Origin: Vulcanimicrobiota bacterium
GTDB lineage: Bacteria; Vulcanimicrobiota; Vulcanimicrobiia; Vulcanimicrobiales; Vulcanimicrobiaceae
DNA length: 64,000 nucleotides
Direction of reading: 5' to 3'
Assembly (NCBI GenBank): GCA_003168375.1
Contig: PMSI01000001.1
Location: 682,001 to 746,000 of the forward strand
How positions within the stretch are numbered: position 1 is the stretch's first letter; each line of letters begins with the position of its first letter. The notes under the pieces were generated by a model. It had not been told where the DNA came from, did no database searches, and saw only the letters and a list, made by a program, of their open reading frames with translations. Below, in pieces: positions 17,981 through 33,077 of this stretch. A program made the translations under genes and the position numbers.

Positions 17981-19660
17981 TCAGCGCTCCAGAACGTATG
18001 TACCCGGCGCGTCGCCGAGCGATGGATAGTGCTCGCTACCGGGTGCTTCCGGAGAACGAATCTGAGCGGGCGAGCGTTGCGCGAGCCAGGCCGTCCAGTC
18101 GGGCCACCACGAGCCCTCGTGCCTCGGCGCGGCGGCGAGCCACGCGTCGGGATCGGGCGGGTTGGCGGTTCCGGGCGGCGTGCCCCACCACACCGCCTTC
18201 TTCTTCTGGGGCGGGCTGATGATCCCGGCAATGTGCCCCGAGGCACCGAGCCGGAACGTCGTCGGCCCGCCGAAGTGCCGGGTCATCGCGTAGACCGAGC
18301 GCCAGGGCGCGATGTGGTCTTCGGAGGTCGCGACACAGTAGGTGTCCAGCGTGATCCGGCCGAGGTCGATCGGGACGCCGTCGACCTCCAGGGCGTCGGG
18401 CTTCGCGAGGTTGTTCTCGACGTACATCTGGCGCAAGTAGTACGAGTGGGCGGCGCGCGGGATCCGCGTGGCGTCGCTGTTCCAGTACAGGAGGTCGAAC
18501 GCCGGCGCGTCACGGCCGAGCAGATAGCGGTTGACGGCGACGCCCCAGATGAGGTCGTTCGCACGCAGCATGCTGAACGTGTCGGCCATCGCGCGCCCGC
18601 TGAGCACACCCTTCTCGGCCATCTGACCTTCGATGAACGCCAGCGCCTCACCGGTGAGAAACGCCATCACATCGCCCGGATCGGTGAAATCGACGAGCGC
18701 CGCGAAGAACGTCGCGGTGTTCACGACCTTCGAATCGGTGCGCGCGAGGTAGGCGAGAGCGGTCGAGAGGAGCGTGCCGCCGATGCAGTAGCCGATCGCG
18801 TCGACGTCCGGGCTGGCGGCGATCTCGCTCGCGACGCGAATCGCCGCCAGCGGTCCGAGCTTCACATAGTCGGCCCAGGTGAGGTCGGCGAGCGAGGCGT
18901 CCGGATTGCGCCACGAGATCACGAAGGTGTTGCGCCCGGCGTCGGTCGCGTACTTGACGAAGCTGTTCGCGGCCTGCAGGTCGAGGATGTAGAACTTGTT
19001 GATCCACGGCGGGACGATGATCAGCGGCCGCGCGTAGATCGCTTCCTGCGTCGGGGCGTACTGGATCAGCTCGATCAGCTCGTTGCGAAAGACGACGTTG
19101 CCGGGCGTCGTCGCCACGTTCTTGCCGACTTCGAACGCCGACTCGTCGACCAGCGCCGGGCGGCCTTCGTTGTTGCGCGCGTCCTCGAGCACGTTCTCCA
19201 TGCCGCGGCGGAAGTTCGCACCGCCGCTGCGCATCGTCTCTTCGAGCACGTCGGGGTTGAACCACGGAACGTTGGTCGGGCTCATCGCGTCGGTGAACTG
19301 CTTGGCGAAGAACTTCACCCGCCGTTTCGTCGCGTCGTCGATCCCCTCGGCGGCGTCGATCGACCCGAGCACCGCTTTGACCGAGAGCAGATAGCCCTGT
19401 TTGAGCGCGTCGAAGTAGGGATTCGTCGTCCACACCGGATTGCTGAAGCGGCGGTCGCCAGGGTCCGGCGCGACGACCGGGGTCCCGGCCGGCTCGGTGT
19501 CGGAGGCAGCGCTCGCGCCGCGCGCGGCGACGTCGGTGAGCGCTCGGCCGAACTCGGCCTGCGCTTCGAGCAGCGCGCCGGGCGAGGTCATCATCGCGCG
19601 CCAGACTTCCATCGACATGGCGCCGACGCCGAGAGGGTCGAACGGATTCTTCGCGCTCAT
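17981..19660 (-). CDS. phaC: Class I polyhydroxyalkanoate synthase
   Basis: 559 residues. Lipase-like box G-Y-C292-I-G-G with catalytic Cys, Asp in SEDHIAPW and His in GASGHIAGIISPP complete the triad. Other class I landmarks include PPWINKFYILDL and FVISWRNPD. It polymerises 3-hydroxyacyl-CoA into storage polyester granules. Length fits class I (about 560-600), which needs no partner subunit. ATG 19660 has GGAGG with 6-bp spacing. No phaA/phaB nearby, but a 3-hydroxybutyrate dehydrogenase-like gene lies at 54465-55262. Confidence 0.95.
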   Translation of the reverse strand: MSAKNPFDPLGVGAMSMEVWRAMMTSPGALLEAQAEFGRALTDVAARGASAASDTEPAGTPVVAPDPGDRRFSNPVWTTNPYFDALKQGYLLSVKAVLGSIDAAEGIDDATKRRVKFFAKQFTDAMSPTNVPWFNPDVLEETMRSGGANFRRGMENVLEDARNNEGRPALVDESAFEVGKNVATTPGNVVFRNELIELIQYAPTQEAIYARPLIIVPPWINKFYILDLQAANSFVKYATDAGRNTFVISWRNPDASLADLTWADYVKLGPLAAIRVASEIAASPDVDAIGYCIGGTLLSTALAYLARTDSKVVNTATFFAALVDFTDPGDVMAFLTGEALAFIEGQMAEKGVLSGRAMADTFSMLRANDLIWGVAVNRYLLGRDAPAFDLLYWNSDATRIPRAAHSYYLRQMYVENNLAKPDALEVDGVPIDLGRITLDTYCVATSEDHIAPWRSVYAMTRHFGGPTTFRLGASGHIAGIISPPQKKKAVWWGTPPGTANPPDPDAWLAAAPRHEGSWWPDWTAWLAQRSPAQIRSPEAPGSEHYPSLGDAPGTYVLER

Positions 19661-19669
19661 AGGGGACCT

Positions 19670-19683
19670 CCGTAGTTCTACGG
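19670..19683. promoter_or_regulatory. Palindrome between phaC and the eight-gene operon
   Basis: CCGTAG-TT-CTACGG is a perfect 6-bp inverted repeat in the 59-bp gap between phaC (-) and the HMG-CoA reductase gene (+). It overlaps the phaC ribosome site. Could be an operator acting on phaC or on both units; unproven. Confidence 0.3.
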
Positions 19684-19719
19684 ACGCCAGCGGCACCCCC
19701 CGCCCGCTATCGTCGTGGC

Positions 19720-20844
19720 ATGAACCGCGTCAGGCATCTCCTCCCACTCGCCGACCTCGGCTGCGACGATCCCGCGACCTACGAGCGCAACATCGAGAAC
19801 TTCATCGGGACCGTTCGCGTCCCGGTCGGGATCGCAGGGCCGCTGACGATCCACGGCGGCGCGGCGCGTGGGACCTACTACGTCCCGCTCGCCACCACCG
19901 AAGCGGCGCTCGTCGCCTCGTACAGCCGCGGTGCGCAGCTCCTGACGCGCGCCGGCGGCTGCGTCGCCCGCGTCCTCGACGCGCGCATGCACCGCGCGCC
20001 GGTCTTCACCTACGCGGACTTGCGCGAGGCGACGATCGCGGCGCTGTGGGTGCGCGAGAACGCCGATCGCCTGCGCGCCGCCGCCGAAGCGACCTCGCGC
20101 CACGCGCGGCTGCTCGACGTCGGCACGACGATCGAAGGCAACCACCTGTATCTCGACTGCGCGTACGCGACCGGCGAAGCGGCGGGCCAGAACATGGTGA
20201 CGTTCGCGACCGAGGCTCTGTGCGCCGAAGTGGTGAGCTGTGCGCCGGTGCGGCCGCGCGCGTTCGCCGTCGAGTCGAACGCGTCGGGCGACAAGAAGGC
20301 CGCCGCCCACGCGCTGCTTTCGACGCGCGGCCGGCGCGTGTGCGCCGACGTGACGATCCCTGCCGCACTGCTCGGAGAGCGGCTGCGCGTGACCCCCGAG
20401 GCATTGGCGACATACTGGCGGACCGGCGCGGTCGCAGCGGCGATGACCGGCACGATCGGGATGCAGGGGATGTACGCGAACGCACTCGCCGCGTTCTACC
20501 TGGCGACCGGCCAGGATGTCGCGTGCGTCGCCGAGTCCGCAATCGGGATCACGCGGCTCGACGTCGCGCCGGACGGCGCGCTGTACGCTTGCGTGACGAT
20601 GCCGAACGTCGTCGTCGCGACGGTCGGCGGCGGCACCGGCCTGCCGACGCAGCGTGCGGCGTCACGCCTGCTCTCGCGCGGCGACGAGCCGCCGACCGCG
20701 GACGCGCTGGCCGAGATCGTCGCCGCGGTCACGTTGGCCGGTGAGATTTCGCTGACCGCATCGCTTTGCGCGCACGAGTTCTCCGATGCCCATCGCCGGT
20801 TCGCCCGCGACGGCGCGAACGCGTGCGCGAGCGCGTCGGCATGA
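19720..20844 (+). CDS. Class I-type hydroxymethylglutaryl-CoA reductase
   Basis: 374 residues. Catalytic residues of HMG-CoA reductase are in place: E61 in PLATTEAALVAS, K192/K193 in SGDKKAA, D266 in TGQDVA, and H358 near the C-terminus (SDAHRR). ENFIG (26-30) and the TVGGGTGLPTQ loop also match. The reaction would be NADPH-dependent reduction of HMG-CoA to mevalonate. Two motifs deviate: the cofactor loop reads TGEAAGQNM instead of DAMGMN, and the Lys motif is ESNASGDKK. It is the first gene of an eight-gene overlapping operon. No other mevalonate gene is visible, so the true substrate may differ. Confidence 0.88.
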   Translation: MNRVRHLLPLADLGCDDPATYERNIENFIGTVRVPVGIAGPLTIHGGAARGTYYVPLATTEAALVASYSRGAQLLTRAGGCVARVLDARMHRAPVFTYADLREATIAALWVRENADRLRAAAEATSRHARLLDVGTTIEGNHLYLDCAYATGEAAGQNMVTFATEALCAEVVSCAPVRPRAFAVESNASGDKKAAAHALLSTRGRRVCADVTIPAALLGERLRVTPEALATYWRTGAVAAAMTGTIGMQGMYANALAAFYLATGQDVACVAESAIGITRLDVAPDGALYACVTMPNVVVATVGGGTGLPTQRAASRLLSRGDEPPTADALAEIVAAVTLAGEISLTASLCAHEFSDAHRRFARDGANACASASA

Positions 20845-21749
20845 ACCGCTGGTTCGTCTACGCCCGCGAGCGTTTTCCGCCGCTGCAGAACGGGGCGCTG
20901 ATCGCCGCGTTCAGCGCGTCCGCGATCGCCTTCTCCGCGCTCGCCCGCGGCGCGGATCATTTTCCGCACTGGCCGCTGCTGGCGGCCGGCTTCGCATCCT
21001 CGCTGCTGATGTTTGCGCTGCTGCGCATCGCCGACGAGTGCAAGGACGCGGAAGAGGATGCGCGCTGGCGCCCGTACCGTCCCGTCCCGCGCGGCCTGGT
21101 GACGCTGCGCGAACTCACCGTCGCCGGTGCTTGCTGCATGGCGCTCCAGCTTGCGATCGCGCTTGCCGTCGACGTGCGGCTCGTCCCCGGGCTGCTGCTC
21201 GTCTGGGTGTGGTTCGCGCTGATGAGCAAAGAGTTCTTCGCTCGCGATTGGCTGCGCGCGCATCCCGTCGTCTACGTCGCCTCGCACATGGTGATCGTCC
21301 CGCTGCTCGACTGGTACGTCAGCGGGTTCGACTGGCTCGTCGCCGGCGCGGCCGCTCCGCACGCCCTCGTTTGGTTCCTTGCGGTGACGTTCGTCAACGG
21401 TCTGGTCGTCGAGCTCGGGCGCAAGATCCGCGCACCGCACGATGAGGAGCCGGGTGTCGAGACCTACACCGCGCTGTGGGGCCGCGGGCGCGCGACGGCG
21501 ATCTGGGCCGGCGCGATCGCGTGCAACGTCGCCCTCGCGACGGTCGCCGCCGCGCACGTCGGCTTCGCGCGCGTCGACATCCTCGTCTTCGGCGCGCTCG
21601 CACTCGCGGCCGCGGCCTGCGCGGTCGTCTTCCTGCGTTCGCGGCGGGCCGGCGGCGGCCGCCGCATCGAGGCCATGACCGGTGCATGGACCCTCGGCTC
21701 CTACCTCTTCCTCGGCGTCATTCCGCTTGGAGTACACGTGCTGCGATGA
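20841..21749 (+). CDS. UbiA-family membrane prenyltransferase-like protein
   Basis: 302 residues, about eight hydrophobic helices. First Asp-rich motif: D65-E-C-K-D69-A-E-E-D73 followed by RPYRPVPRG, equivalent to UbiA NDxxDxxxD...RPL..G. Second: RKIRAPHDEEPGVETY (about 190-205). The missing leading Asn and the DxxxDxxxD spacing separate it from standard menaquinone or haem enzymes. UbiA enzymes move a prenyl group from a diphosphate to an acceptor in the membrane. Start ATG overlaps the reductase stop (ATGA). Confidence 0.85.
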   Translation: MNRWFVYARERFPPLQNGALIAAFSASAIAFSALARGADHFPHWPLLAAGFASSLLMFALLRIADECKDAEEDARWRPYRPVPRGLVTLRELTVAGACCMALQLAIALAVDVRLVPGLLLVWVWFALMSKEFFARDWLRAHPVVYVASHMVIVPLLDWYVSGFDWLVAGAAAPHALVWFLAVTFVNGLVVELGRKIRAPHDEEPGVETYTALWGRGRATAIWAGAIACNVALATVAAAHVGFARVDILVFGALALAAAACAVVFLRSRRAGGGRRIEAMTGAWTLGSYLFLGVIPLGVHVLR

Positions 21750-24145
21750 TCGCTCTGCAAACCCGCGCGCATCGCGGAATCGTTTTCCCCGGCGACGTCG
21801 ACGCCGCCGACCTCGCGCAGACCGGCGGGAAAGCAGCCGGCCTCGCGCGCCTGCGCGACGCCGGCTGCAACGTACCGCCCTGGTTCGTCATCACGCCGGA
21901 TTGGACGGAAGACGACGGCGATGCACTCGAAGAAGCGCTGTCGCGGCTTGGCGACGAGCGGTTCGCGGTGCGCTCGTCCGCGACGATCGAAGACGGCGCG
22001 CACGCGTCGTTCGCGGGGCAGTTCGCAAGCCTGCTGTTCGTCTCGCGCGACGATGTAGCAGCGGCGATCCGTCGTGTGCGCGAATCGACGTCGAGCGATG
22101 CGCTGCGTGCGTACGCCGGCGCAGCGCACGGCGTCGAGATGGCGGTGATCGTGCAGCGCATGGTCATCGGCGAAGCGAGCGGCGTCGCGTTCGGGATCGA
22201 CCCGATCGGCGGCGGCGACGTGGTTGTCGTGACCGCAGCGCGCGGGCTCGCCGCCGCCGTCGTCGACGGCGACGCCGTCACCGATATGTGGCACGTCGAG
22301 CGCGACGGCACGATCGCGGCGCGTACGATCGCCGAGCCGGGCGCGACGCGCGCCGTCCTCGACGACGCGCAGGTGCACGCCGTCGCGTCGCTCGCGCGCC
22401 GCATCGCGAACGCCGCGGGTGGCCCGCAGGACGTCGAGTTCACCTTCGCGGCCGGACGCCTTTGGGCGCTGCAGGCGCGACCGGTCACCGCGGCCGCCGC
22501 CGTGCCGGTCGCGATCTGGGACGACAGCAACATCGCGGAGAGCTACGGCGGCGTCGTCGGCGCACTGACCTACTCGTTCGCGCGTCACGCGTACGCGGGC
22601 GCATATCGCGCGTTCTTCCGCTTCGCCGCCGTCCCGCGCAACGCGATCGACGCGCACGCCGAGACCTTCGAAGGACTGGTCGGACGGATCGAAGGGCGGA
22701 TGATGTACGACCTGGTGCGCTGGTACCGCATGCTGGCGCTGCTCCCGGGCTATCGTCTCAACCGCCGGTTGATGGAAGAGATGATGGGGGTGCGCGAAGC
22801 GATCCCGCCGGAGCTCGCCGACACGATCGCGCGCGGCTGCCGCCGCGGGAAGCTGCGCGACGCCGCGATGCTCGCGCGCACCGCCGTCGCGCTCGCGATC
22901 GCCGCCGTGCGGCTCCCCGGCGACGTCGAACGCTTCCACGCTCACGTCGAGACGACGCTGAGCGGCGGGCCGCCGCTCGAACGCGCGTCGCTGACCGAGC
23001 TCGCCGGCGAATACCGGCGACTCGAGCGCGCGCTGCTCGAGCGCTGGAACGTGCCGATCGCCAACGACTTTTTCGTGATGCTTTCGTTCGGGCTGCTCAA
23101 ACGTGCCGCGGAGCGCTGGTGCGGCGACGTCACGCTGGCGCCGGCGCTGCTCGCCGGAAGCGGTGGAATGACGAGTGCCGAGCCCGCGCGCGCCGTGCAG
23201 CGCCTGGCGGCACTCGACGCCGCCGGCGACCGCGACGCGTTCGCTCGCGAGCTCGCGGCCTACGTCGCGCGGTTCGGCGACCGCTGCGAGAGCGAGCTGA
23301 AGCTGGAGAGCCCGACGCTGCACGACGATCCGCAGCCGTTGCTCGAGGCGATCGCCCGGCTGCGCGACGCTGCGAACGTCGACCCGACCGCCGCGGCCGA
23401 ACGGATGCGCGCCGGCGCCGAACGGCGCGCGCGCACCGCGCTGCGAGCGCGGCCCATGCAGGCGTTCGTCTTCGCCCGCCTGGTCTCGTGGGCGCGCGCC
23501 CGCATCGTCGCGCGGGAAAACCTGCGCTTCGAGCGGACGCGCGTGTTCGGCCGCGTGCGGCGGATTTTCTTGGCGATGGGCCGCGTGCTCGCGCGACGCG
23601 GGGCGATCGGCGACGCGCGCGACGTCTTCCACCTCACGATCGACGAGCTGCTCGGCTTCGCCGAAGGAAACGCCGCGAGCCGCGAACTGCGCGCACTTGC
23701 CGCGGTGCGGAGCGCTGAGAGCGCGCGCTACGCCGCGGCTCCCGCCCCGCCCAGCCGCTTCGCGACGCGGGATCTTCCGGTCGCCCCGCTCTCGGCGCCG
23801 CCTGCCGCCATGTTGGACGATACGGTCCGGACCGGCACGCCCTGCTGTCCCGGCGTCGTCCGGGCGCGGGTACGGGTCGTGCGCGATCCGCGCGAGACGC
23901 TGCACGCCGGAGAGATCCTCGTCGCCGAACGCACCGATCCCAGCTGGGTCGTGCTGTTCCCGGCCGCCGCCGCGATCCTGGTCGAGCGCGGCAGCCAGCT
24001 CTCGCACGCGGCGATCGTCTCGCGCGAGATGGCGATCCCCTCGATCGTCGCGATCCGCGGCCTCACCGCGTGGCTGCGCGACGGCGATCTCGTCGAGCTC
24101 GACGGAGCGACCGGCCTCGTCCGCCGGCTGGAGCGCGCGTCATGA
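21746..24145 (+). CDS. PEP synthase-like / rifampicin phosphotransferase-like dikinase
   Basis: 799 residues. N-terminal ATP-binding domain of PEP synthase type (TGGKAAGLARLRDAGCNVPPWFVI; FAVRSSATIEDGAHASFAGQ; AVIVQRMV). A long central helical domain (about 280-680) does not resemble the PEP-synthase TIM barrel. The C-terminal swivelling domain carries the phosphohistidine H754 in GSQLSHAAIVSRE. This three-part plan is that of antibiotic phosphotransferases and related dikinases, which split ATP and phosphorylate an alcohol through the His. The acceptor here is unknown; its operon neighbours suggest a lipid or isoprenoid alcohol. Start overlaps by ATGA. Confidence 0.85.
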   Translation: MIALQTRAHRGIVFPGDVDAADLAQTGGKAAGLARLRDAGCNVPPWFVITPDWTEDDGDALEEALSRLGDERFAVRSSATIEDGAHASFAGQFASLLFVSRDDVAAAIRRVRESTSSDALRAYAGAAHGVEMAVIVQRMVIGEASGVAFGIDPIGGGDVVVVTAARGLAAAVVDGDAVTDMWHVERDGTIAARTIAEPGATRAVLDDAQVHAVASLARRIANAAGGPQDVEFTFAAGRLWALQARPVTAAAAVPVAIWDDSNIAESYGGVVGALTYSFARHAYAGAYRAFFRFAAVPRNAIDAHAETFEGLVGRIEGRMMYDLVRWYRMLALLPGYRLNRRLMEEMMGVREAIPPELADTIARGCRRGKLRDAAMLARTAVALAIAAVRLPGDVERFHAHVETTLSGGPPLERASLTELAGEYRRLERALLERWNVPIANDFFVMLSFGLLKRAAERWCGDVTLAPALLAGSGGMTSAEPARAVQRLAALDAAGDRDAFARELAAYVARFGDRCESELKLESPTLHDDPQPLLEAIARLRDAANVDPTAAAERMRAGAERRARTALRARPMQAFVFARLVSWARARIVARENLRFERTRVFGRVRRIFLAMGRVLARRGAIGDARDVFHLTIDELLGFAEGNAASRELRALAAVRSAESARYAAAPAPPSRFATRDLPVAPLSAPPAAMLDDTVRTGTPCCPGVVRARVRVVRDPRETLHAGEILVAERTDPSWVVLFPAAAAILVERGSQLSHAAIVSREMAIPSIVAIRGLTAWLRDGDLVELDGATGLVRRLERAS

Positions 24146-25206
24146 ACGCGCTGCGCTACGCGCAATGCTGGGAGGATGCCGACGTGCTGGTCGCCGCACT
24201 CGCCGTCCGGCCCGGCGGAACGTACGTCGCGATCGCGTCGGCCGGCGACAACGCGCTGGCGATGCTGGCGGCCGGGCCGGCGCGGGTGATCGCGCTCGAC
24301 CGCGAGCCGGCGCAGCTCGCCGCGCTGGAACTGCGCGTCGCCGCCTATCGGGCGCTCAGCCACGAAGAGCTGCTCGCGCTCGTCGGATCGCGTCCGCACG
24401 CTGCGCGTCGCAAGCTCTACGCGCGCTGCCGTCCCCTTCTGCACGACGCCCCCCGCGCGTACTGGGACGCGCGGCCGGACGCGATCCGCGCGGGGATCGG
24501 CAGCGCCGGGCGTTTCGAGCGCTATCTCGCGTTGTTCCGCACCGTCGTCCTGCCGCTGATCCACTCGCGCGAGACCGTGAACGAGCTGCTCGCCTGCGAC
24601 GACGGCGAGCGCGCACGCTTCTACGCCGAGCGCTGGGACACGCCGCGCTGGCGGCTCGCGTTCCACCTGTTCTTCGCACGCTCCACGATGGGCGCTCTGG
24701 GCCGCGACCCGCGCTTCTTCGCGCACGCCGACGGACCGGTCTCGCAGCGGCTGCTCGCGCGGATCGCGCGCTCGCTGCGCGACGACGACGCCGGCACGAA
24801 CCCGTACCTCCGCTGGATTCTGACCGGCGCGCACGGCGACGACCTGCCGCCGGCGCTGCGCGCGGAGTCCTACGAGGCGATCCGCGCGAACCTGGACCGG
24901 CTCGAGATCCGCCGCACCTCGCTCGAGGAGTTCGTCGACGCGCACGACGGCCCGCTCATCGACGGCTGGAATCTCTCCGACGTCTTCGAGTACGTCGACG
25001 ACGCCGAGTACGCGTCGCTGCTGGCGCGCATCGCCGCCGTCTCGGCGCCCGGCGCGCGACTCGCGTACTGGAACATGCTCGTGCCGCGCCACCGGCCGGA
25101 GGCGCTCGCACCGTTCTTGGCCGCGCGTGAGGACCTCGCGGCGCCGCTGCGCGCCCGCGACCGCGTTCCGTTCTACGGCGACTTCGTCGTGGAGCAAGCA
25201 CGATGA
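24142..25206 (+). CDS. BtaA-like DUF3419 protein (SAM 3-amino-3-carboxypropyl transferase family)
   Basis: 354 residues. Opens with LRYAQCWEDADVL, the signature start of DUF3419/BtaA, then a SAM-binding-like fold (GGTYVAIASAGDNALAML, VIALDREPAQLA) and later NLSDVFEYV. BtaA moves the aminocarboxypropyl group of SAM to diacylglycerol in betaine-lipid synthesis. No BtaB N-methyltransferase is next to it, so the product would stay a homoserine-type ether or be modified otherwise. Start overlaps by ATGA. Confidence 0.83.
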   Translation: MNALRYAQCWEDADVLVAALAVRPGGTYVAIASAGDNALAMLAAGPARVIALDREPAQLAALELRVAAYRALSHEELLALVGSRPHAARRKLYARCRPLLHDAPRAYWDARPDAIRAGIGSAGRFERYLALFRTVVLPLIHSRETVNELLACDDGERARFYAERWDTPRWRLAFHLFFARSTMGALGRDPRFFAHADGPVSQRLLARIARSLRDDDAGTNPYLRWILTGAHGDDLPPALRAESYEAIRANLDRLEIRRTSLEEFVDAHDGPLIDGWNLSDVFEYVDDAEYASLLARIAAVSAPGARLAYWNMLVPRHRPEALAPFLAAREDLAAPLRARDRVPFYGDFVVEQAR

Positions 25207-25850
25207 CCGCGGTGCTCGTCGCCGCCGCACTGGCGCTTTTGGTCGGCGGGATCGGCGTCCTCGCTCGACGCTTCGCCTGGGAAGCCGAGGTCGCACGCAA
25301 AGCCTCGCACGTCGCGCTCGGGCTGGCGGCGCTGCCGCTGCCGTGGCTGTTCCGCGACGACGCGCCGGTGCTGATGCTGGCGTTTGCGGCATGCGCGGGC
25401 CTGTTCGCGCTGCGCGCGGTCCCGGCGCTCAAGGCACGCTTCGGCTGCGCGCTGCACGGGATCGCGCGCGCCTCGTTCGGCGAGTTCGCGTTCGTGGGCG
25501 GCGTCGCGCTCGCGTTCGTGCTGGCGCACGACCACCCCACCGCAAACGTCGCGGCGATCCTCACGCTCGCGCTCGGCGACACCGCGGCGGCGCTGGTCGG
25601 GCGCAGCTTCGGCCGGCATCGGTTCGCGGTCGGCCGCGCGCACAAGTCGCTCGAAGGATCGTGCGCGTTCTTCGCGGTGGCCGCGGTCGTCGCCGCCGTC
25701 TTGCCGGACGGGCTCGGCGTCGCCGCCGTGGCGGCGTTCGCGCTCGCGACGACGCTCGCCGAGGCGCTCGCGGGCGACGGTCTCGACAACGCGGCGATCC
25801 CACTCGCCGGTCTGCTCGCGCTTCGTCTCTTCACGGGAGTTTCGCCATGA
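25203..25850 (+). CDS. SEC59/DGK1/VTE5-family lipid kinase-like membrane protein
   Basis: 215 residues, about six hydrophobic helices. Motifs of the dolichol/phytol/diacylglycerol kinase family are visible: RKASHVALG near the start, ILTLALGDTAAALVGRSFGRHRF, and KSLEGSCAFF. These enzymes phosphorylate lipid alcohols, usually with CTP. In this operon it could make a prenyl or other lipid monophosphate. ATGA overlap with the preceding gene and another with the next. Confidence 0.82.
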   Translation: MTAVLVAAALALLVGGIGVLARRFAWEAEVARKASHVALGLAALPLPWLFRDDAPVLMLAFAACAGLFALRAVPALKARFGCALHGIARASFGEFAFVGGVALAFVLAHDHPTANVAAILTLALGDTAAALVGRSFGRHRFAVGRAHKSLEGSCAFFAVAAVVAAVLPDGLGVAAVAAFALATTLAEALAGDGLDNAAIPLAGLLALRLFTGVSP

Positions 25851-26752
25851 CGCCCACCCTCGCACGCCCGCCGATCACCGCGCCCGACGACGTGCTCGAA
25901 TTGCGCGCGCGCGGGATCGTTCGCGCGCGGTGCTCGCTGTGGTGGGGCGGAATCCCCACGCACGAGGGTCGCCGCACCGGCTTCGTCGGCGCGCTCGAGT
26001 CGTGCGACGACGATGCAACGAACATCCTCCTCGCGCGCGCCGCGGAACGCTTGCGCGCGGCCGGCTGCACGCTGGCCGCCGGTCCCGTCGACGGTGATAC
26101 CTGGCATCGCTACCGGCTGGTGACCTGGACCGACGGTACGCCGCCGTTCGCGCTCGAACCGTACTCGCCGGTGGCGGCGACGGTGCCGTGGGAGCGCGCG
26201 GGGTTCGCGCCGCTCGAGACGTACGCGTCGTATCGCGACGACGCGCTCGGCACGCGCGACCCGCGCGCTCCGGCGCTCGAGGCGCGGCTGCGCGCGGCCG
26301 GGATCGTGCTGCGCCCGCTCGATCTCGCGCGCTTCGACGACGAGCTCGCGCAGATCCACACGCTCGCGCTGCGCGGCTTCCGCGACGCGGCGCTCTACGC
26401 GCCGATCGGGTTCGAGGCGTTCGCCGCGCTGTATCGCCCACTGGCGCCGCTGCTCGACCCGCGCCTGTGCCCCGTCGCCGTCCGCGACGGCCGGATCGCC
26501 GGCGCACTGTTCGCGTTGCGCGATCCGCGCGTGCCGCACACGGTCGTGCTGAAAACGGTCGTGCGCGACCCCGACCGCCTGCTGGCCGGACTCGGCTTCG
26601 TCCTCACCGACCATGCACGCGCCGCGGCACACGCGCTCGGCGCGACGCGCGCGATCTCGGCGCTCCAGCACGACGGGAGCGTCGCGCGCTCGCTGGCCGC
26701 GCAAGCCATCATCTTCCGCCGCTACGCCGTCTTCGGTAAGGAGCTCTCGTGA
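25847..26752 (+). CDS. GNAT-like acyltransferase-family protein
   Basis: 301 residues. The block AAGPVDGDTWHRYRLVTWTDGTPPFALEPYSP is shared with YghO-like GNAT proteins as I remember them. The second half (about 150-300) has the GNAT plan of an acceptor-binding helix, beta strand AGALFALRD and a possible cofactor-binding segment VVRDPDRLLAGLG. It probably transfers an acyl group to an amine, perhaps the amino acid group added by the DUF3419 protein (inference). Joined by ATGA upstream and GTGA downstream. Confidence 0.65.
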   Translation: MTPTLARPPITAPDDVLELRARGIVRARCSLWWGGIPTHEGRRTGFVGALESCDDDATNILLARAAERLRAAGCTLAAGPVDGDTWHRYRLVTWTDGTPPFALEPYSPVAATVPWERAGFAPLETYASYRDDALGTRDPRAPALEARLRAAGIVLRPLDLARFDDELAQIHTLALRGFRDAALYAPIGFEAFAALYRPLAPLLDPRLCPVAVRDGRIAGALFALRDPRVPHTVVLKTVVRDPDRLLAGLGFVLTDHARAAAHALGATRAISALQHDGSVARSLAAQAIIFRRYAVFGKELS

Positions 26753-28317
26753 ACGTCGCTCGGATCATCTGCGGGCGGGCCGCCGCGCACCCCGAACGGA
26801 TCGCGTTCGTCGACGCCGGAGCCGGGCGCACGCTTTCGTACGCGGCACTCGACGCGGCGAGCGCGCGCGTCGCGGCGGCGCTGCGCAACCACGGCCTGCG
26901 TCCGGGCGACACGGTGCTGATCGCGCATCCCGTGACGCTGGAGCTGTACGTCGCGCTGATCGGGATGCTGCGTGCCGGGCTCGTTCCCGCGATCCCGCCG
27001 CCGGGCGCGGACCTCGGCGCGCTGGCGCGCTGCGTGCTCGCCTATCCGCCGCGGGCGGTGCTCGCGGGCGGGATCGGCTGGGCGGCAGTCGCGGCGATCC
27101 CGGCGCTGCGCCGCGCGATGCGGTTCGCGACGGTTGGCGGGCCGTTCGCGTTCGACATCATCCACGCCGGCGTCGCGTCGGACGGCGAGGTCGTCGCGCG
27201 CGATGACGGCGATCCCGCGATGCTCACCTTCACCTCGGGCAGCACCGGCACGCCGAAGGCGATGCTCCGCTCGCACGGCGTTGCGCACGCGCAGATCGAC
27301 GCGCTCGCCGCGGCACTCGCGCCGTGCGAGGCGACCTCACTCTGCACGATGCCGATCGTGCTGCTGGCCGAACTCGCCGCGGGCGCGACCTGCCTGCTGC
27401 CGGGGATCGACCTGCGCCGGCCCGCGCGCGCCGACGCGGCGCAGCTCGCCGCCCGGATGCGCGCGCACGGCGTCGCGCGGATCGTCGCCTCGCCGGCGCT
27501 GCTGACGAACCTCGCCGCCGCGCTGGAAGCGCGCGGCGAGACGCTGCCCGCGCTTCGGCTGACCGCCTCGGGCGGCGCGCCGGTGATGCCGCCGCTCGCC
27601 GCCGCACTGCGCAGGATCGCGCCGAACGCGCGGATCCTCGCCGTCTACGGAAGCACCGAGGCCGAACCGATCGCAATCCTGGACGCAGCGGACGTCACGC
27701 CTGACGATCACGACGCGATGCGCGGCGGCGCCGGACTGCTCGCCGGCGTTCCCTGCGCCCCGGGACGCATCGCCGTCGTCGCGACCGAACGCGGCGCCGT
27801 GTTCGGGCCGTTCGCCGAAGACAACGCGCCGCTTCGGCTCGCCCTGCCGCCGCGAGCCGTCGGCGAGATCGTCGTCGCAGGCCCGCATGTCGTACCGCAC
27901 TTCCTCGACCGTGCCGACGATGCGACCACGAAGATCCGCGCCGGCGCGACGATGTGGCACCGCACCGGCGATCTCGGCTATCGCGACGAGACGGGCCGGC
28001 TGTGGCTGGTGGGGCGCGTCGCGGGCACGATCGACGACGCGCGTGGGACGCTCGAGCCGCTGCGCGTCGAGTGCGCGCTCGCGTATCGGCCCGAGATCGC
28101 GCGCTGCGCGATCGCGGGGGTCGACGGAATGCGCATCCTGCTCGTCGAGCCGCTGCCGAACCGGCGCATCGACGAGCGCGCGATCCGCGCTGCGGTCGCG
28201 TTCGCCGAGATCGACCGCGTCGTCACCGGGCCGGTCCCCGTCGACCCGCGCCACAACGCGAAGGTCGACTACGCCGCGCTGCAGCGGATCGTGCGCCGGT
28301 ACGCGCGTGTCGCCTGA
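26749..28317 (+). CDS. Acyl-adenylating AMP-binding ligase
   Basis: 522 residues. ANL-superfamily motifs: P-loop TFTSGSTGTPKA (about 160-171), YGSTEAEP, HRTGDLGYRD and the C-terminal RHNAKVDY, where the Lys of NAKVDY is the likely adenylation lysine. It would activate a carboxylic acid as acyl-AMP and possibly acyl-CoA. General form resembles OleC-like and fatty-acid ligases, but no OleA or OleD is nearby. GTG start overlaps the previous stop, and the next gene overlaps its end by 11 bp. Confidence 0.85.
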   Translation: MNVARIICGRAAAHPERIAFVDAGAGRTLSYAALDAASARVAAALRNHGLRPGDTVLIAHPVTLELYVALIGMLRAGLVPAIPPPGADLGALARCVLAYPPRAVLAGGIGWAAVAAIPALRRAMRFATVGGPFAFDIIHAGVASDGEVVARDDGDPAMLTFTSGSTGTPKAMLRSHGVAHAQIDALAAALAPCEATSLCTMPIVLLAELAAGATCLLPGIDLRRPARADAAQLAARMRAHGVARIVASPALLTNLAAALEARGETLPALRLTASGGAPVMPPLAAALRRIAPNARILAVYGSTEAEPIAILDAADVTPDDHDAMRGGAGLLAGVPCAPGRIAVVATERGAVFGPFAEDNAPLRLALPPRAVGEIVVAGPHVVPHFLDRADDATTKIRAGATMWHRTGDLGYRDETGRLWLVGRVAGTIDDARGTLEPLRVECALAYRPEIARCAIAGVDGMRILLVEPLPNRRIDERAIRAAVAFAEIDRVVTGPVPVDPRHNAKVDYAALQRIVRRYARVA

Positions 28318-29173
28318 GTACGCCGCCGCCCTGCAGCGCTACGAGACGCTGCGGCGGCGCGACGACGCGACGATCCACGCCCGCAGCGGCTCGATCCTGC
28401 TCGCGCACGGACACCGCACGCCGCGCGTCGTGCTGCTGTTGCACGGCCTCACCGCCAGCCCGATGCAGTGCGACGCGCTCGCGCGCAGCCTGCACGGTCG
28501 TGGCGACACGGTGCTCGTCCCGCGCCTGCCCGGGCACGGCGCCCGCGACCGGCTGACGACACAGCTGCGCGACCTGCGCGGGGAGCATCTGCTCGACGCC
28601 GCGCGCGAAGCGCTCGCGATCGCGCGTGGCCTCGGCGTCTCCGTCACCGTGGCGGGATTCTCGCTCGGCGGGCTGCTCGCCGCCTGGATCGCGCAGCACG
28701 AGAGCGTCGACCACGTCGTCGCGATCGCGCCGTTCCTCGGCGTCGCGTGCGTGCCGCGCGCCGCGACCGCGACGCTGGTCACCGCGCTGCGCACGCTGCC
28801 GAACGTCTTTCTGTGGTGGGACCCCCTACGCCGCGAGCGCCAGATGCCGGACCACGGCTATCCACGCTATCCGACGCACGCGATCGCCGAAGCGCTCGGG
28901 ATCGCGTCGGCGCTCGCAGGCCTCGCCCGCACGACGGCGCCTGCGACGCGCCGGATCACGATCGTCACCAACGCGAGCGAGACGGCGGTCAACAACGCCG
29001 CCGCGCACGACCTCGCCGACCTCTGGTCTGCGCAAACCGCCGGATCGGTGAGCGTGCAGCGCATCACCGGCTTGCCGCCGTCGCACGACGTGATCGAACC
29101 GCTCCGCCCGGGCACGCTCGCGCGCCGCGCCTACCGAACGCTCCTGCCGATCCTCCATGACGGCCGTACGTGA
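28307..29173 (+). CDS. Alpha/beta hydrolase (esterase/lipase-like)
   Basis: 288 residues. Nucleophile elbow G-F-S119-L-G-G, oxyanion segment LLLHGLTASPMQ, and a candidate catalytic His in LPPSHDVI near the end. Resembles bacterial monoacylglycerol lipase/carboxylesterase proteins. GTG 28307 lies inside the end of the ligase gene, closing the eight-gene operon. It could remove or transfer an acyl group in the same pathway. Confidence 0.8.
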   Translation: MSPEYAAALQRYETLRRRDDATIHARSGSILLAHGHRTPRVVLLLHGLTASPMQCDALARSLHGRGDTVLVPRLPGHGARDRLTTQLRDLRGEHLLDAAREALAIARGLGVSVTVAGFSLGGLLAAWIAQHESVDHVVAIAPFLGVACVPRAATATLVTALRTLPNVFLWWDPLRRERQMPDHGYPRYPTHAIAEALGIASALAGLARTTAPATRRITIVTNASETAVNNAAAHDLADLWSAQTAGSVSVQRITGLPPSHDVIEPLRPGTLARRAYRTLLPILHDGRT

Positions 29174-29182
29174 CCGCGCCGG

Positions 29183-29956
29183 TTAGAGGGAGTCGACGAA
29201 CGACGCGATCCGCTCGATCACAAGCTCCGGGGCGTCGCGGTGCGGGCTGTGGCCGGCGCCGGGGACGAGCAGCGTCTCGCTACGCAGGACGCGCAGCGCG
29301 ATCGCATCGAGCTGCGCCGTGGTGCCGTACTCGTCGGCGTTGCCTTGGATCATGAGGACGGGGCAGTGCACGCGATCGGCATATGACTCGATGTTCCAGT
29401 CGCGAAAACGTGGATCGAGCCAGATCTCGTTCCAGCCGGAGAATGTCGCATCAGCGTCGGCATGGTGACGCGCGAGCTTTGCCGGGAGGTCGCTCGTCGC
29501 GTACGCGGTCTTCGCCGCCGCGATGCTGCGCACGCTGATCTCTTCGACGAAGACGTGCGGGGCCTCGAGCACGAGTGCGCGCACGAGCTCGGGCTGCGAC
29601 GCCGCGCAGATCAGTGCGATCGACGCGCCGTCGCTGTGGCCGAAGAGCACCGGGCGTTCGATCTCGAGCGCGGCGAGGAGCGCGGGGAGAACGACCTCTC
29701 CCTCGTGGTGCATGTAGTCGGGTTCGCGAGGCTCCGCGAACACCTCGGACCGGCCGTAGCCGTATCGCGAGTACGCGACGACGCTGCAGCGCGTGCGGGC
29801 GGCGAGTCGCTGCGGGAAATCGCGCCACAACGAGACCGAGCCCAGCCCTTCGTGCAGCATGACGAGCGCCGGCCGCGCCGGGTCGCCTTCGTAGCGCACC
29901 GTTTCGAGCCGCTTGCCGTCCGCGACGACCTCACGCGCAGTAGGCTCGCGCGTCAT
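29183..29956 (-). CDS. Alpha/beta hydrolase in benzoate operon
   Basis: 257 residues. Nucleophile motif GHSDGA, with GNADEYG (Asp) and GAGHSPH (His) completing a likely triad. Its ATG overlaps the stop of the benzoate-CoA ligase gene (ATGA), so it is the third gene of the boxD-ligase-hydrolase operon. In this setting it may open a ring product, act as a thioesterase, or release benzoate from esters; the sequence does not decide. Confidence 0.83.
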   Translation of the reverse strand: MTREPTAREVVADGKRLETVRYEGDPARPALVMLHEGLGSVSLWRDFPQRLAARTRCSVVAYSRYGYGRSEVFAEPREPDYMHHEGEVVLPALLAALEIERPVLFGHSDGASIALICAASQPELVRALVLEAPHVFVEEISVRSIAAAKTAYATSDLPAKLARHHADADATFSGWNEIWLDPRFRDWNIESYADRVHCPVLMIQGNADEYGTTAQLDAIALRVLRSETLLVPGAGHSPHRDAPELVIERIASFVDSL

Positions 29957-31545
29957 TTGTTCTCGCGGGCGCGCAGCACGTGCCGCCGGATCTTGCCGGT
30001 CGCCGTCTTCGGCAGCTCGGTGACGAACTCGATCCAGCGCGGGTACTTGTACCGCGCCAAGCGGCTCTTCACGTGCGCTTTGAGCTCCTCGGCCAGCTCG
30101 TCGCGCGGCTCGATCCCCGGCTTGAGCACGACGAACGCTTTCGGCTTGATCAAATCGCTCTTATCGGCGACGCCGATCACCGCCGCTTCGAGGACGGCCT
30201 CGTGCGCGACGAGCGCCGCCTCGACCTCGCTCGGCGAGACCCAGATCCCGCCGACCTTCAGCATGTCGTCGACGCGTCCGCAGTAGACGAAATACCCCTC
30301 CTCGTCCTGGCGGTACTTGTCGCCGGTGCGCGTCCACTCGCCGGCGAACGTGGCGCGCGATTTCGCGCGGTTGTTCCAGTAGTGGACCGCCGACGTCTCG
30401 CCGCTGACCTCGAGCTCGCCGAGCTCGCCCGGCGCCACCTCGCGGCCGTCCTCGGCGACGATCCGCACGCGGTAGCCGGGGACCGGCAGACCGGTGGTGC
30501 CGTACTTCACCGCGCCGGGACGGTTCGAGACGAAGATGTGCAGCATCTCGGTCGAGCCGATCCCGTCGATGATCTCCACGCCGAAGCGCGCGGTCCAGTT
30601 CTTGCCGATCTCTTCGGGGAGCGGCTCGCCGGCCGACGTACAGAGCCGCAGCGCGATCTCGCCGCGGGCCGGAAGATCGGGGTGGACCAGCAGCGAGCCG
30701 AACAGCGTCGGCACGCCGCAGAAGATCGTCGCGCCGCGCTCGCGCAGGATCGTGCTGACGACGTCCGGCGTCGCGCGGCCGGACTGCAGCACCGCCGTCG
30801 CACCGACCGACATCGGGAACGAGAGCGCGTTGCCGAGCCCGTACGCGAAGAACAGCTTCGCAGCCGAGAAGACGACGTCGTCTTCGCGCATGCCGAGCAC
30901 GTCGCGCGCGAACAGCTCGGCGGTGCGGATCATGCTCGTCTGCACGTGCAGCGTGCCCTTCGGCTTACCGGTGGAACCCGACGAGTAGAGCCAGAAGCAG
31001 ACGTCGTCGGGCCGCGTCGGCGCGGGCTTGGCGATCGGCGTCGCGGCGTCCATCAGCGCGGCGAGCGTGGGATAGCGCGCGTCCGTCAGCGTGCCGCGCG
31101 GATCGGAGACGATGAAGCGCCCGGTCCAGCTCGCGAGGCGCGCGGCTTCTTCGTACGCCGGGAGCAGCTCCGCCGAGACGATCGCCGCCTTGGCGCGACT
31201 GTCGGCGAGGATGAACGCGAAGTCGAGCGGCTGGAACAGCGTGTTGACCGGGATCGGAACGACGCCGGCCTTGATCGCGCCGAGGAACGCCGTCGGGAAG
31301 TCGATCGTGTCGAGCAGGCCGAGCACGACGCGCTGCTCGACGTCGATGCCGAACGCGCGCAGCGCGCCGGCGCAGCGGTCGACGCGGCGCGCGAGCTCGC
31401 CGTAGGTGCACGCGCCGTACTCGTCGACGAACGCCGGCTTCTCGGCACGCGCCGGAAGGTTCCGCTCGATCAGATCGACGGCGGCGTTGTAGAACGCAGG
31501 TGCGGCGTTCTCGGCCGACGCGTTTGGTTCGGTCGACGCGGTCAC
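29953..31545 (-). CDS. Benzoate-CoA ligase
   Basis: 530 residues. ANL ligase with YSSGSTGKPKGTLH (P-loop), GIGSTEMLHIF, and the C-terminal TGKIRRHVLR carrying the catalytic Lys. The FVSNRPGAVKYGTTGLPVPGY segment is the form seen in benzoate/4-hydroxybenzoate CoA ligases. It activates benzoate to benzoyl-CoA with ATP, the entry step to the box pathway encoded around it. GTG 31545 overlaps the stop of boxD (GTGA). The frame stays open further upstream only because of high GC. Confidence 0.92.
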   Translation of the reverse strand: MTASTEPNASAENAAPAFYNAAVDLIERNLPARAEKPAFVDEYGACTYGELARRVDRCAGALRAFGIDVEQRVVLGLLDTIDFPTAFLGAIKAGVVPIPVNTLFQPLDFAFILADSRAKAAIVSAELLPAYEEAARLASWTGRFIVSDPRGTLTDARYPTLAALMDAATPIAKPAPTRPDDVCFWLYSSGSTGKPKGTLHVQTSMIRTAELFARDVLGMREDDVVFSAAKLFFAYGLGNALSFPMSVGATAVLQSGRATPDVVSTILRERGATIFCGVPTLFGSLLVHPDLPARGEIALRLCTSAGEPLPEEIGKNWTARFGVEIIDGIGSTEMLHIFVSNRPGAVKYGTTGLPVPGYRVRIVAEDGREVAPGELGELEVSGETSAVHYWNNRAKSRATFAGEWTRTGDKYRQDEEGYFVYCGRVDDMLKVGGIWVSPSEVEAALVAHEAVLEAAVIGVADKSDLIKPKAFVVLKPGIEPRDELAEELKAHVKSRLARYKYPRWIEFVTELPKTATGKIRRHVLRARENK

Positions 31546-33077
31546 CGCGCGATCTCCACCGCCCGGCTCGCGAGCTCGGCGAGCACCGGCGCCGGACCCT
31601 GCACCGCGGTTCGTTGATGGTAGAACCAGAGCCCACGCAGTCCGCCGAGCTCTTCGCCGTTGCCGGCGCGGCCGGGACCGCCGTGCAGGCACGACGGCAG
31701 CACGATCCCATGACCGGTGTGGCTCTCGCCGATCGACGGATCGACCAGCAGCACGCGGCCGTGCGACGCGCCGAGCGCCGCCGCCGACGCGGCCAGGAAG
31801 GCGGGATCGGCGCTGAAGACCGACGCGACCAGCGATCCCCCGCCGCGCCGTGCGAGCGCGTACGCCTCCGCCGGATCGCGATAGGTGACGACGGTCGCGA
31901 CCGGGCCGAAGATCTCCGCGTCGTGCACCACCGGCACGTCACCGTCCGCGCGGAACAGCGCCGGCGCGACGTACGCCGCTTTTTCGTCCGCGCCATGTCG
32001 GCGCCGGTAGACGAGCGTTGCCGCTTCCTGCAGTGCGCGAATCCCGGCTTCAACCGCGTCGCGCGACGACGGTGAGACGACCGGCGCGACCTCGGGCGCA
32101 GCGTCGAGCGCGGACGAGATCGCAGCGACGACGGCATCGGCAAAGGCTGCCGGAACGAGCGCGCGGCGGATCGCGGTGCATTTCTGGCCGGCCTTGGTCG
32201 TCATCTCGCGCACGACCTCGCGCACGAAGAGGTCGAAGACCGGCGTGCCGGGTGCAGCGTCCGGTCCGAGCAGCGATGCGTTCAGCGAATCAGCTTCTAC
32301 GTTCACGCGAATGTTCTCGCCGCGCACGTGCGGATGTTCGCGAATCGTCTCGCCGGTCTCGGACGAACCCGTGAACGCGAGCGCGTCGCCGAACTTCACG
32401 AAGAGCAGCAGGTCGCCGGCCGAGCCCGCGATGATCGATAGCGCACCGTCGGGCAGAATACCGGCGTCGGTCACCGCACGCGTCATCGCCACCGCGAGCC
32501 ACGCGGTCGCGGTCGCGGGCTTCGCAACGACGGGGACGCCGGCTAGCAGCGCAACCGCGGCTTTCTCCCACAGCCCCCACGACGGGAAGTTGTACGCGTT
32601 GATGTGGATCGCGACGCCGTCGATGGGAACGCCGATGTGCAGTCCTTGGAAGTTCGCGTCGCGCGCGAGCCTTTGCGGCCCGCCGTCGGCGAGAAACGAC
32701 GCCGAGCCGAGCGCCGCGCCGGTCTTCGCGAAATACTTCAGCGTCCCGATCGCCCCGTCGACGTCGATCGCCGCATCGGCCGGCGTGTTCCCCGAGTTGC
32801 GGCGCGCGATCTCATGCCACTCGTCCTTGCGCGCGGCGAGCACGTCGGCGATCTTCCCGAGCAGCTCGGCCCGCTCCGCGAAGCTGAGCCGCCGCAGCGC
32901 GGGTCCGCCGATCTCGCGGGCATAGCGCAACGCCCCGGCGAGGTCGAGTCCATCGGAGCTCGCCCGAGCGACGGTCTCGCCGGTCGCGGGATCGACCAGT
33001 GCCGCGCCCTCCCCGTCGCCGCGAACCCATTTCCCGGCAAGATAGCTTTCGAGGACGATCGGCTCGGCAGCGATCAT
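31542..33077 (-). CDS. boxD: 3,4-dehydroadipyl-CoA semialdehyde dehydrogenase
   Basis: 511 residues, aldehyde dehydrogenase fold: INAYNFPSWGLWEK, FTGSSETG, NVEADSLNA and the active-site Cys in TTKAGQKCTAIRR. The NAYNFPxWG and AGQKCT forms are typical of the BoxD/PaaZ group rather than general ALDHs. It oxidises the semialdehyde released by BoxC to 3,4-dehydroadipyl-CoA. ATG 33077 has GGGAGAG upstream. Promoter with a perfect TATAAT lies at 33111-33138. Confidence 0.92.
   Translation of the reverse strand: MIAAEPIVLESYLAGKWVRGDGEGAALVDPATGETVARASSDGLDLAGALRYAREIGGPALRRLSFAERAELLGKIADVLAARKDEWHEIARRNSGNTPADAAIDVDGAIGTLKYFAKTGAALGSASFLADGGPQRLARDANFQGLHIGVPIDGVAIHINAYNFPSWGLWEKAAVALLAGVPVVAKPATATAWLAVAMTRAVTDAGILPDGALSIIAGSAGDLLLFVKFGDALAFTGSSETGETIREHPHVRGENIRVNVEADSLNASLLGPDAAPGTPVFDLFVREVVREMTTKAGQKCTAIRRALVPAAFADAVVAAISSALDAAPEVAPVVSPSSRDAVEAGIRALQEAATLVYRRRHGADEKAAYVAPALFRADGDVPVVHDAEIFGPVATVVTYRDPAEAYALARRGGGSLVASVFSADPAFLAASAAALGASHGRVLLVDPSIGESHTGHGIVLPSCLHGGPGRAGNGEELGGLRGLWFYHQRTAVQGPAPVLAELASRAVEIAR

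Follow-up and report, generated by a model that had tools for sequence, protein, structure and literature searches.

BtaA and BtaB together serve betaine-lipid synthesis. BtaA is listed as a 3-amino-3-carboxypropyl (ACP) transferase that uses S-adenosylmethionine (SAM) (PMC10491745). In HMG-CoA reductase (HMGR), Lys735 forms a salt bridge with the carboxylate of the 3-hydroxy-3-methylglutaryl (HMG) group (PMC9500038). The lipocone paper mentions UbiA and HMGR gene neighbourhoods other than the operon described here (PMC12419801). The 64-kb stretch of Vulcanimicrobiota DNA analysed here (the window; contig PMSI01000001.1, positions 682,001 to 746,000) contains an eight-gene block that encodes relatives of BtaA, HMGR, and UbiA together with five further proteins. 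Seven of these genes form one conserved unit with no mevalonate context, and both the HMGR-like and the UbiA-fold enzymes have altered motifs. By analogy with the families involved, the operon is proposed to make a membrane-associated amino-lipid that contains the SAM-derived ACP group and is probably N-acylated, with a probability of about one half.

Every enzyme family in the operon is already known, and the newness lies in the pathway as a whole. The initial annotation of the window could not match the pathway to any described one, and this holds within the open-access literature searched, in which no description of the seven-gene pathway was found (subscription papers and preprints lay outside the search, and absence is not proven). 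A metabolic operon whose seven enzymes are retained in many phyla usually has an important product. Here that would mean a further lipid class, or a further pathway at the least, for Cyanobacteria, Methylomonas, Verrucomicrobia, Planctomycetes, Acidobacteria, and others.

The gene block and its conservation

The block occupies positions 19720-29173 of the window on the + strand, exactly where it was first annotated, and all of its open reading frames (ORFs) are free of internal stops. The eight genes are as follows:

19720-20844, + strand: HMGR-like reductase, class I fold (374 aa; PF00368, E 1e-102)
20841-21749, + strand: UbiA-fold membrane transferase (302 aa; PF01040, E 9e-12)
21746-24145, + strand: RPH/PigC/PEP-synthase-like phosphotransferase, or dikinase (799 aa; PF01326, E 1e-40, and PF00391, E 1e-22)
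24142-25206, + strand: DUF3419 (BtaA-like) SAM-dependent transferase (354 aa; PF11899, E 3e-62, 211 bits)
25203-25850, + strand: VTE5/SEC59-like polyprenol (phytol/dolichol) kinase-like membrane protein (215 aa; motifs, weak CTP_transf_1 match)
25847-26752, + strand: tandem GNAT N-acyltransferase-like protein (301 aa; fold of the AlphaFold2 model)
26749-28317, + strand: ANL acyl-adenylating ligase, GTG start (522 aa; PF00501, E 2e-47)
28307-29173, + strand: alpha/beta hydrolase, GTG start (288 aa; PF00561, E 2e-9)

Re-reading of the ORFs and junctions confirms, base for base, the chain of eight genes with seven stop/start overlaps. Five junctions are ATGA (20841, 21746, 24142, 25203, and 25847), one is GTGA (26749), and one is an 11-bp overlap (28307-28317).

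A DUF3419 profile was used to scan 84,980 species genomes, the best 80 loci were taken for comparison, and gene orders were counted in the 42 loci whose flanks extend at least 6 kb upstream and 4.5 kb downstream of the DUF3419 gene. All seven core genes are present in 32 of these 42 well-flanked loci, which represent 11 named phyla, and they occur in two orders only: HMGR-UbiA-dikinase-DUF3419-VTE5-GNAT-ANL (25 loci) and GNAT-ANL-HMGR-UbiA-dikinase-DUF3419-VTE5 (7 loci). Because seven of the eight genes are kept in this manner, chance assembly is excluded. Counted singly, the UbiA and dikinase genes are each present in 41 of the 42 loci, GNAT in 39, VTE5 and the ligase in 38 each, and HMGR in 34. 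Pairwise protein distances correlate among the seven families (r 0.65-0.90, 23 loci), and phyla are intermixed in the DUF3419 tree, as expected if the whole block is transferred. Judged from these comparisons, the seven-gene set is a real evolutionary unit and is best read as a horizontally spread biosynthetic operon. The initial proposal that the genes serve one pathway is well supported for seven of the eight genes, and the search across genomes suggested as a check finds these seven families co-conserved.

The alpha/beta hydrolase, initially counted as a pathway member, is rejected as a core gene. Among more than 80 loci, it is found solely in three congeneric ones from the window's genus (L016, L017, and L018), and thus the conserved unit is seven genes rather than eight. 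On this distribution, the hydrolase is best regarded as an accessory gene. The GNAT-ligase pair behaves as a movable module that comes first in some loci and last in others, and is elsewhere distant or absent.

Taken together, DUF3419 loci of the operon type are found in 17 named phyla, isolates included. Within the source phylum, DUF3419 is matched in 14 of 149 genomes, and the matches in ten of them, the window's genome counted in, are close homologues; the three congeneric loci carry the complete eight-gene set in an unchanged order, and other families of the phylum have at most seven. The two nearest DUF3419 loci, from Candidatus Eremiobacterota, are 83-84% identical. In a sample of 274 genomes from the class of Methylomonas, the operon is present in five or six (~2%). 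Many carriers are metagenome-assembled genomes (MAGs), while Methylomonas, Alkalilimnicola, Natronospirillum, and Desulfobulbus are isolates with the operon or most of it; since such culturable carriers exist, the pathway question is testable now. Among them are Natronospirillum operosum, Desulfobulbus rhabdoformis DSM 8777, Methylomonas sp. SURF-1, and Alkalilimnicola ehrlichii AK92. A plasmid of the alphaproteobacterial Roseinatronobacter sp. S2 has the genes from UbiA through the ligase in order. In Leptolyngbya sp. FACHB-8 (L053), no operon partner accompanies the DUF3419 gene within the 20 kb of its locus, and the genome has an operon-type HMGR on contig G152:C86, which indicates that the gene set can be split. 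No gene fusion among the loci was accepted, and the long ORFs seem due only to upstream start choice.

Upstream of the block in the window lies a divergent class I PHA synthase gene (17981-19696, - strand), which nothing ties to the operon. Downstream, in convergent orientation, are a - strand hydrolase gene and a benzoate-CoA-ligase-family gene (29953-31692, - strand), the latter with no sign of operon membership. With these orientations on its two sides, the block stands as a separate unit. A promoter and terminator scan gave signals no better than chance.

The enzymes of the operon

The HMGR-like reductase has the fold, the catalytic Glu/Lys/Asp/His, and the NADPH-binding region in common with class I HMG-CoA reductase. 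Sixty operon HMGRs were aligned to the human, plant, and archaeal enzymes, and residue numbers follow human HMGR. Glu559, Arg590, Asp690, Lys691, Lys692, Asn755, Asp767, and His866 are kept in 60/60 operon proteins, and the class I catalytic set (Glu559, Lys691, Asp767, and His866) is complete in each. Unlike class I HMG-CoA reductase, the operon enzymes lack a surrounding mevalonate pathway and three residues: Lys735 is lost in 60/60 (to Met in 38, to Val in 9, and otherwise to Thr, Ile, Phe, Ala, or Leu), Ser684 is Glu in 60/60, and Met657 is Gln in 60/60. The window protein has the catalytic Glu, Lys, Asp, and His, with Thr at position 735 and Glu at position 684.

Searches of 17 operon-bearing genomes found neither HMG-CoA synthase nor an above-cut-off mevalonate kinase in any of them; mevalonate-diphosphate decarboxylase was found in one (G154), and DXR of the methylerythritol phosphate (MEP) pathway is present in 16. 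On this genome content and the changes at Lys735 and Ser684, a mevalonate pathway role is rejected, and mevalonate chemistry for the enzyme initially annotated as HMG-CoA reductase is not supported. The lack of mevalonate context and the changed HMG-binding residues point to a different acyl substrate, and the operon HMGR probably uses NADPH to reduce an acyl-CoA whose acyl group is other than HMG. The exchange of a basic for a neutral residue at position 735 and of Ser for Glu at position 684 would fit a substrate that presents a neutral or cationic group at this site.

HMGR genes are also found outside the operon. A Vibrio fluvialis plasmid (L116:13800-15062) and Vibrio campbellii (L119:14001-15056) encode HMGRs 60-65% identical to that of the Methylomonas operon, with Met at position 735 and Asp at position 684; the annotated V. 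fluvialis copy is solitary. The source phylum has a second orphan HMGR group without other operon genes (L105, L106, L109, and L110), in which Lys735 is Ile, Arg, or Val and Met657 is Gln, and genome G125 carries both groups. On the Alteromonas macleodii plasmid pBGP9 (L117:6265-13026), an HMGR-like gene with Tyr at position 735 stands a few genes past a T_hemolysin, AMP ligase, haem-oxygenase-like, and SDR block, a possible further HMGR-plus-ligase gene set. The Sinorhizobium medicae conjugative plasmid pMl2 (L118:4920-14592) encodes a divergent HMGR (38% identical, Lys735 to Ala, Arg590 to Lys), with genes for acyl-CoA carboxylase subunits on one side of it and an MmgE/PrpD gene on the other. 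The orphan HMGRs of bacteria may reduce a different substrate, and a reductase family without the HMG-specific lysine offers a testable explanation for the isolated HMG-CoA reductases of MEP bacteria, perhaps of Vibrio too.

The UbiA-fold transferase belongs to the same Pfam family as chlorophyll synthase and DGGGP synthase and has the first Asp-rich motif in common with them. In the window protein this motif, DExKDxxxD, is intact (D65, E66, K68, D69, and D73), and D65, D69, and D73 are present in 61/61 homologues. It differs from both enzymes at the second Asp-rich motif (DxxxD type), which is replaced by ExGRK (E191, G193, R194, and K195). R194 and K195 are both present in 61/61 homologues, at a position where chlorophyll synthase has Asn-Asp in a profile comparison. 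With Arg194-Lys195 in place of the second motif, an ordinary prenyl diphosphate donor is doubtful. The family assignment made at the outset stands, and the accompanying statement that UbiA moves prenyl groups becomes uncertain. Two variant operons (L070:3732-4478 and L023:7175-8086) have a divergent UbiA that still contains an FGRK motif, and in L070 a formyltransferase follows HMGR.

The dikinase consists of an ATP-grasp domain and a phospho-His mobile domain, and its His754 is present in 60/60 homologues. RPH, the prodigiosin ligases PigC and RedH, and PEP synthase have the same pairing of ATP-grasp and swivelling phospho-His domains, and the nearest families are the PRK06241-type "PEP synthases", RPH, and PigC/RedH. 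The best NCBIfam match is NF004881 (593 bits), and PDB matches are 5fbs and 5hv2. In contrast to these relatives, the operon dikinase forms its own subgroup near NF004881, and the PEP/pyruvate-binding domain PF02896 was not found in it by Pfam, which gave PF01326 and PF00391 only. In a Verrucomicrobiaceae MAG (L064:4610-9893), a class III aminotransferase, a second dikinase-like protein, and a small protein are inserted between the dikinase and DUF3419.

The DUF3419 enzyme is predicted, by analogy with BtaA, to be an ACP transferase. It is 26% identical over its full length to a BtaA-like protein of Rhizobium leguminosarum and has the SAM-binding region in common with it, and for a member of this family one would naturally predict that ACP is transferred to a lipid hydroxyl. 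The R. leguminosarum gene adjoins a BtaB-type methyltransferase gene, whereas no BtaB-type N-methyltransferase is among the conserved operon genes of the 42 well-flanked loci, where DUF3419 is accompanied by six other conserved genes. In a quick tree that has several long branches and in which the exact placement of outliers is unsure, the operon proteins form a separate clade, set apart from the rhizobial BtaA-like proteins by a long branch with 100% support. A search for PDB relatives of DUF3419 found none. The Rhizobium plasmid pMK-2 (L113:1-5077) presents a third setting for DUF3419, without BtaB, beside an oxidoreductase, an MBL-fold hydrolase, and a "CoF synthetase".

The VTE5-like protein has a weak, below-cut-off match to CTP_transf_1 (E 0.021) and near-invariant RKxxH, D144, KxxEG, and DN motifs across 59 homologues. 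The RKxxH, KxxEG, and DN-type motifs are shared with VTE5 phytol kinase and SEC59 dolichol kinase. Unlike these kinases, the operon protein is sub-threshold in Pfam and often has an extra C-terminal membrane domain of ~220 aa, which is present on most homologues and missing from the window protein and several others. A ~750-bp gap between VTE5 and GNAT in most relatives is this extension and not a missing gene. A DUF92/VTE6 identity for the extension was not accepted (7/47 members, best E 0.002), a Foldseek search with a confident model of the VTE5 fusion found no relative for the extra domain, and a search for PDB relatives of the VTE5-like protein also found none.

The sixth gene product is sub-threshold by sequence profile (E 0.014). 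Its AlphaFold2 model (pLDDT 94.3) has a tandem GNAT fold, and the best PDB folds are tandem GNATs (E 2e-11) including MAB_4324 (7q3a) and mycothiol synthase (1ozp). The ligase is an ANL-family enzyme whose nearest named families are NF006754 (319 bits) and then OleC, both under cut-off. Its OleC beta-lactone synthetase score of 204.6 bits is far under the equivalog cut-off of 900, and OleA, OleB, and OleD are not in the conserved set.

Proposed pathway and alternatives

An N-acylated homoserine-type (3-amino-3-carboxypropyl) amino-lipid is the most economical guess for the product. From the families of the enzymes we infer ACP transfer, thioester reduction, lipid-alcohol phosphorylation, UbiA-fold alkyl transfer, acyl activation, and N-acylation. 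In the simplest chain, the HMGR-like enzyme would reduce a non-HMG acyl-CoA thioester with NADPH to an alcohol, and the VTE5-like kinase and RPH-like phosphotransferase would phosphorylate or otherwise activate a lipid alcohol. The UbiA-fold enzyme would then alkylate an acceptor with the activated alcohol, and the DUF3419 enzyme would, like BtaA, attach the ACP group of SAM to a hydroxyl on a lipid alcohol; this may be the alcohol made by the HMGR-like enzyme or another. Finally, the ligase would form an acyl-adenylate or acyl-CoA from which the tandem GNAT would transfer the acyl group to the amine. The product is perhaps exported; a minority of loci have an MMPL-type lipid transporter within or close to the operon. 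The exact order of these steps is held with far less confidence than the nature of the product.

The UbiA fold, the VTE5 motifs, and the MMPL transporters favour a membrane or lipid character for the product. A more specific version, put forward tentatively and at somewhat less than even odds, is a new bacterial class of membrane amino-lipids with a 3-amino-3-carboxypropyl head, an alkyl or prenyl ether, and an N-acyl group, made by an HMGR-fold and UbiA-fold seven-enzyme pathway spread between phyla. In such a pathway the substrate of the HMGR-fold enzyme would have no HMG carboxylate and might carry a neutral or positive group close to Glu684, and the UbiA-fold enzyme would act without a second Asp-rich motif. 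The operon also poses three catalytic puzzles: an HMGR without Lys735, a UbiA without its second Asp motif, and a DUF3419 enzyme outside betaine lipids.

Several points weigh against the amino-lipid proposal. ACP transfer and the lipid acceptor are extrapolations, since DUF3419 is just 26% identical to the BtaA-like protein, and the step order and acceptor are guesses. A UbiA without the second Asp motif may not use prenyl diphosphates. HMGR is not near the operon in 8 of the 42 well-flanked loci, and no homologue was found anywhere in genomes G154 and G160, which suggests that its step is dispensable or replaceable; no recurrent substitute gene was seen upstream of UbiA in the HMGR-less loci. 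MMPL transporters are present in few loci.

The alternative that survives best, though unlikely, is the salvage or conjugation of isoprenoid alcohols, in which VTE5 and the dikinase would make polyprenol or phytol diphosphate for UbiA by a tocopherol- or quinone-like logic and DUF3419 would modify the conjugate by methyl or ACP transfer. The VTE5 motifs, the UbiA alongside, and the faint DUF92 (VTE6-like) match of the added C-terminal domain are consistent with it. The missing second Asp motif of UbiA, a conserved set without aromatic acceptor or ring-modifying enzymes, and the absence of the extra domain from the window protein and several others argue against it, as do the weakness of the DUF92 signal and the empty Foldseek result.

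Next in rank, and unlikely as well, is a cluster for a secreted small molecule, such as a signal or chelator, that moves horizontally like those of secondary metabolism and does not make a structural membrane lipid. Its patchy presence (~10/149 genomes in the phylum and 5-6/274 in the class of Methylomonas), the plasmid copy, and the exporter directly downstream in Methylomonas fit this explanation, but integral membrane enzymes and MMPL transporters suit a lipid better, and the set has no carrier proteins and no NRPS or PKS parts.

A divergent betaine-lipid (DGHS/DGTS-like) pathway, in which DUF3419 would act as BtaA on diacylglycerol while the other genes modify or supply the lipid, is improbable. 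It agrees with the DUF3419 homology, the common SAM-binding region, and the membrane enzymes around it, and it is opposed by the lack, in the conserved set, of a BtaB-type methyltransferase like that of R. leguminosarum, by the fully supported long branch, and by the six other partners. A mevalonate-supplying isoprenoid operon, in which HMGR would feed extra prenyl donors to UbiA, is very improbable: the intact class I fold and catalytic residues and the presence of UbiA and a polyprenol-kinase-like protein would suit it, but in the 17 genomes neither HMG-CoA synthase nor an above-cut-off mevalonate kinase was found, DXR is present in 16 of them, and Lys735 and Ser684 are replaced in 60/60 operon proteins.

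Transporters and other recurrent neighbours

Generic ABC transporters and small clusters aside, clustering of the neighbouring genes gives two recurrent groups, MMPL-family transporters (5 loci) and cytochrome P450s (5 loci). Two or three loci have an MMPL-type transporter between the dikinase and DUF3419, two others have one close by, and in Methylomonas a MacB/FtsX-type (MacB/Lol-type) ABC exporter lies directly downstream of the operon. Together, these transporters fit an exported lipid. The neighbours located are as follows:

L034:7818-9965, MMPL-family transporter, in or near the operon
L069:7682-9811, MMPL-family transporter, in or near the operon
L037:3690-5957, MMPL-family transporter, in or near the operon
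L080:12470-14746, MMPL-family transporter, in or near the operon
L051, L052, L074, L086, and L097, cytochrome P450s, in or near the operon in this minority of loci

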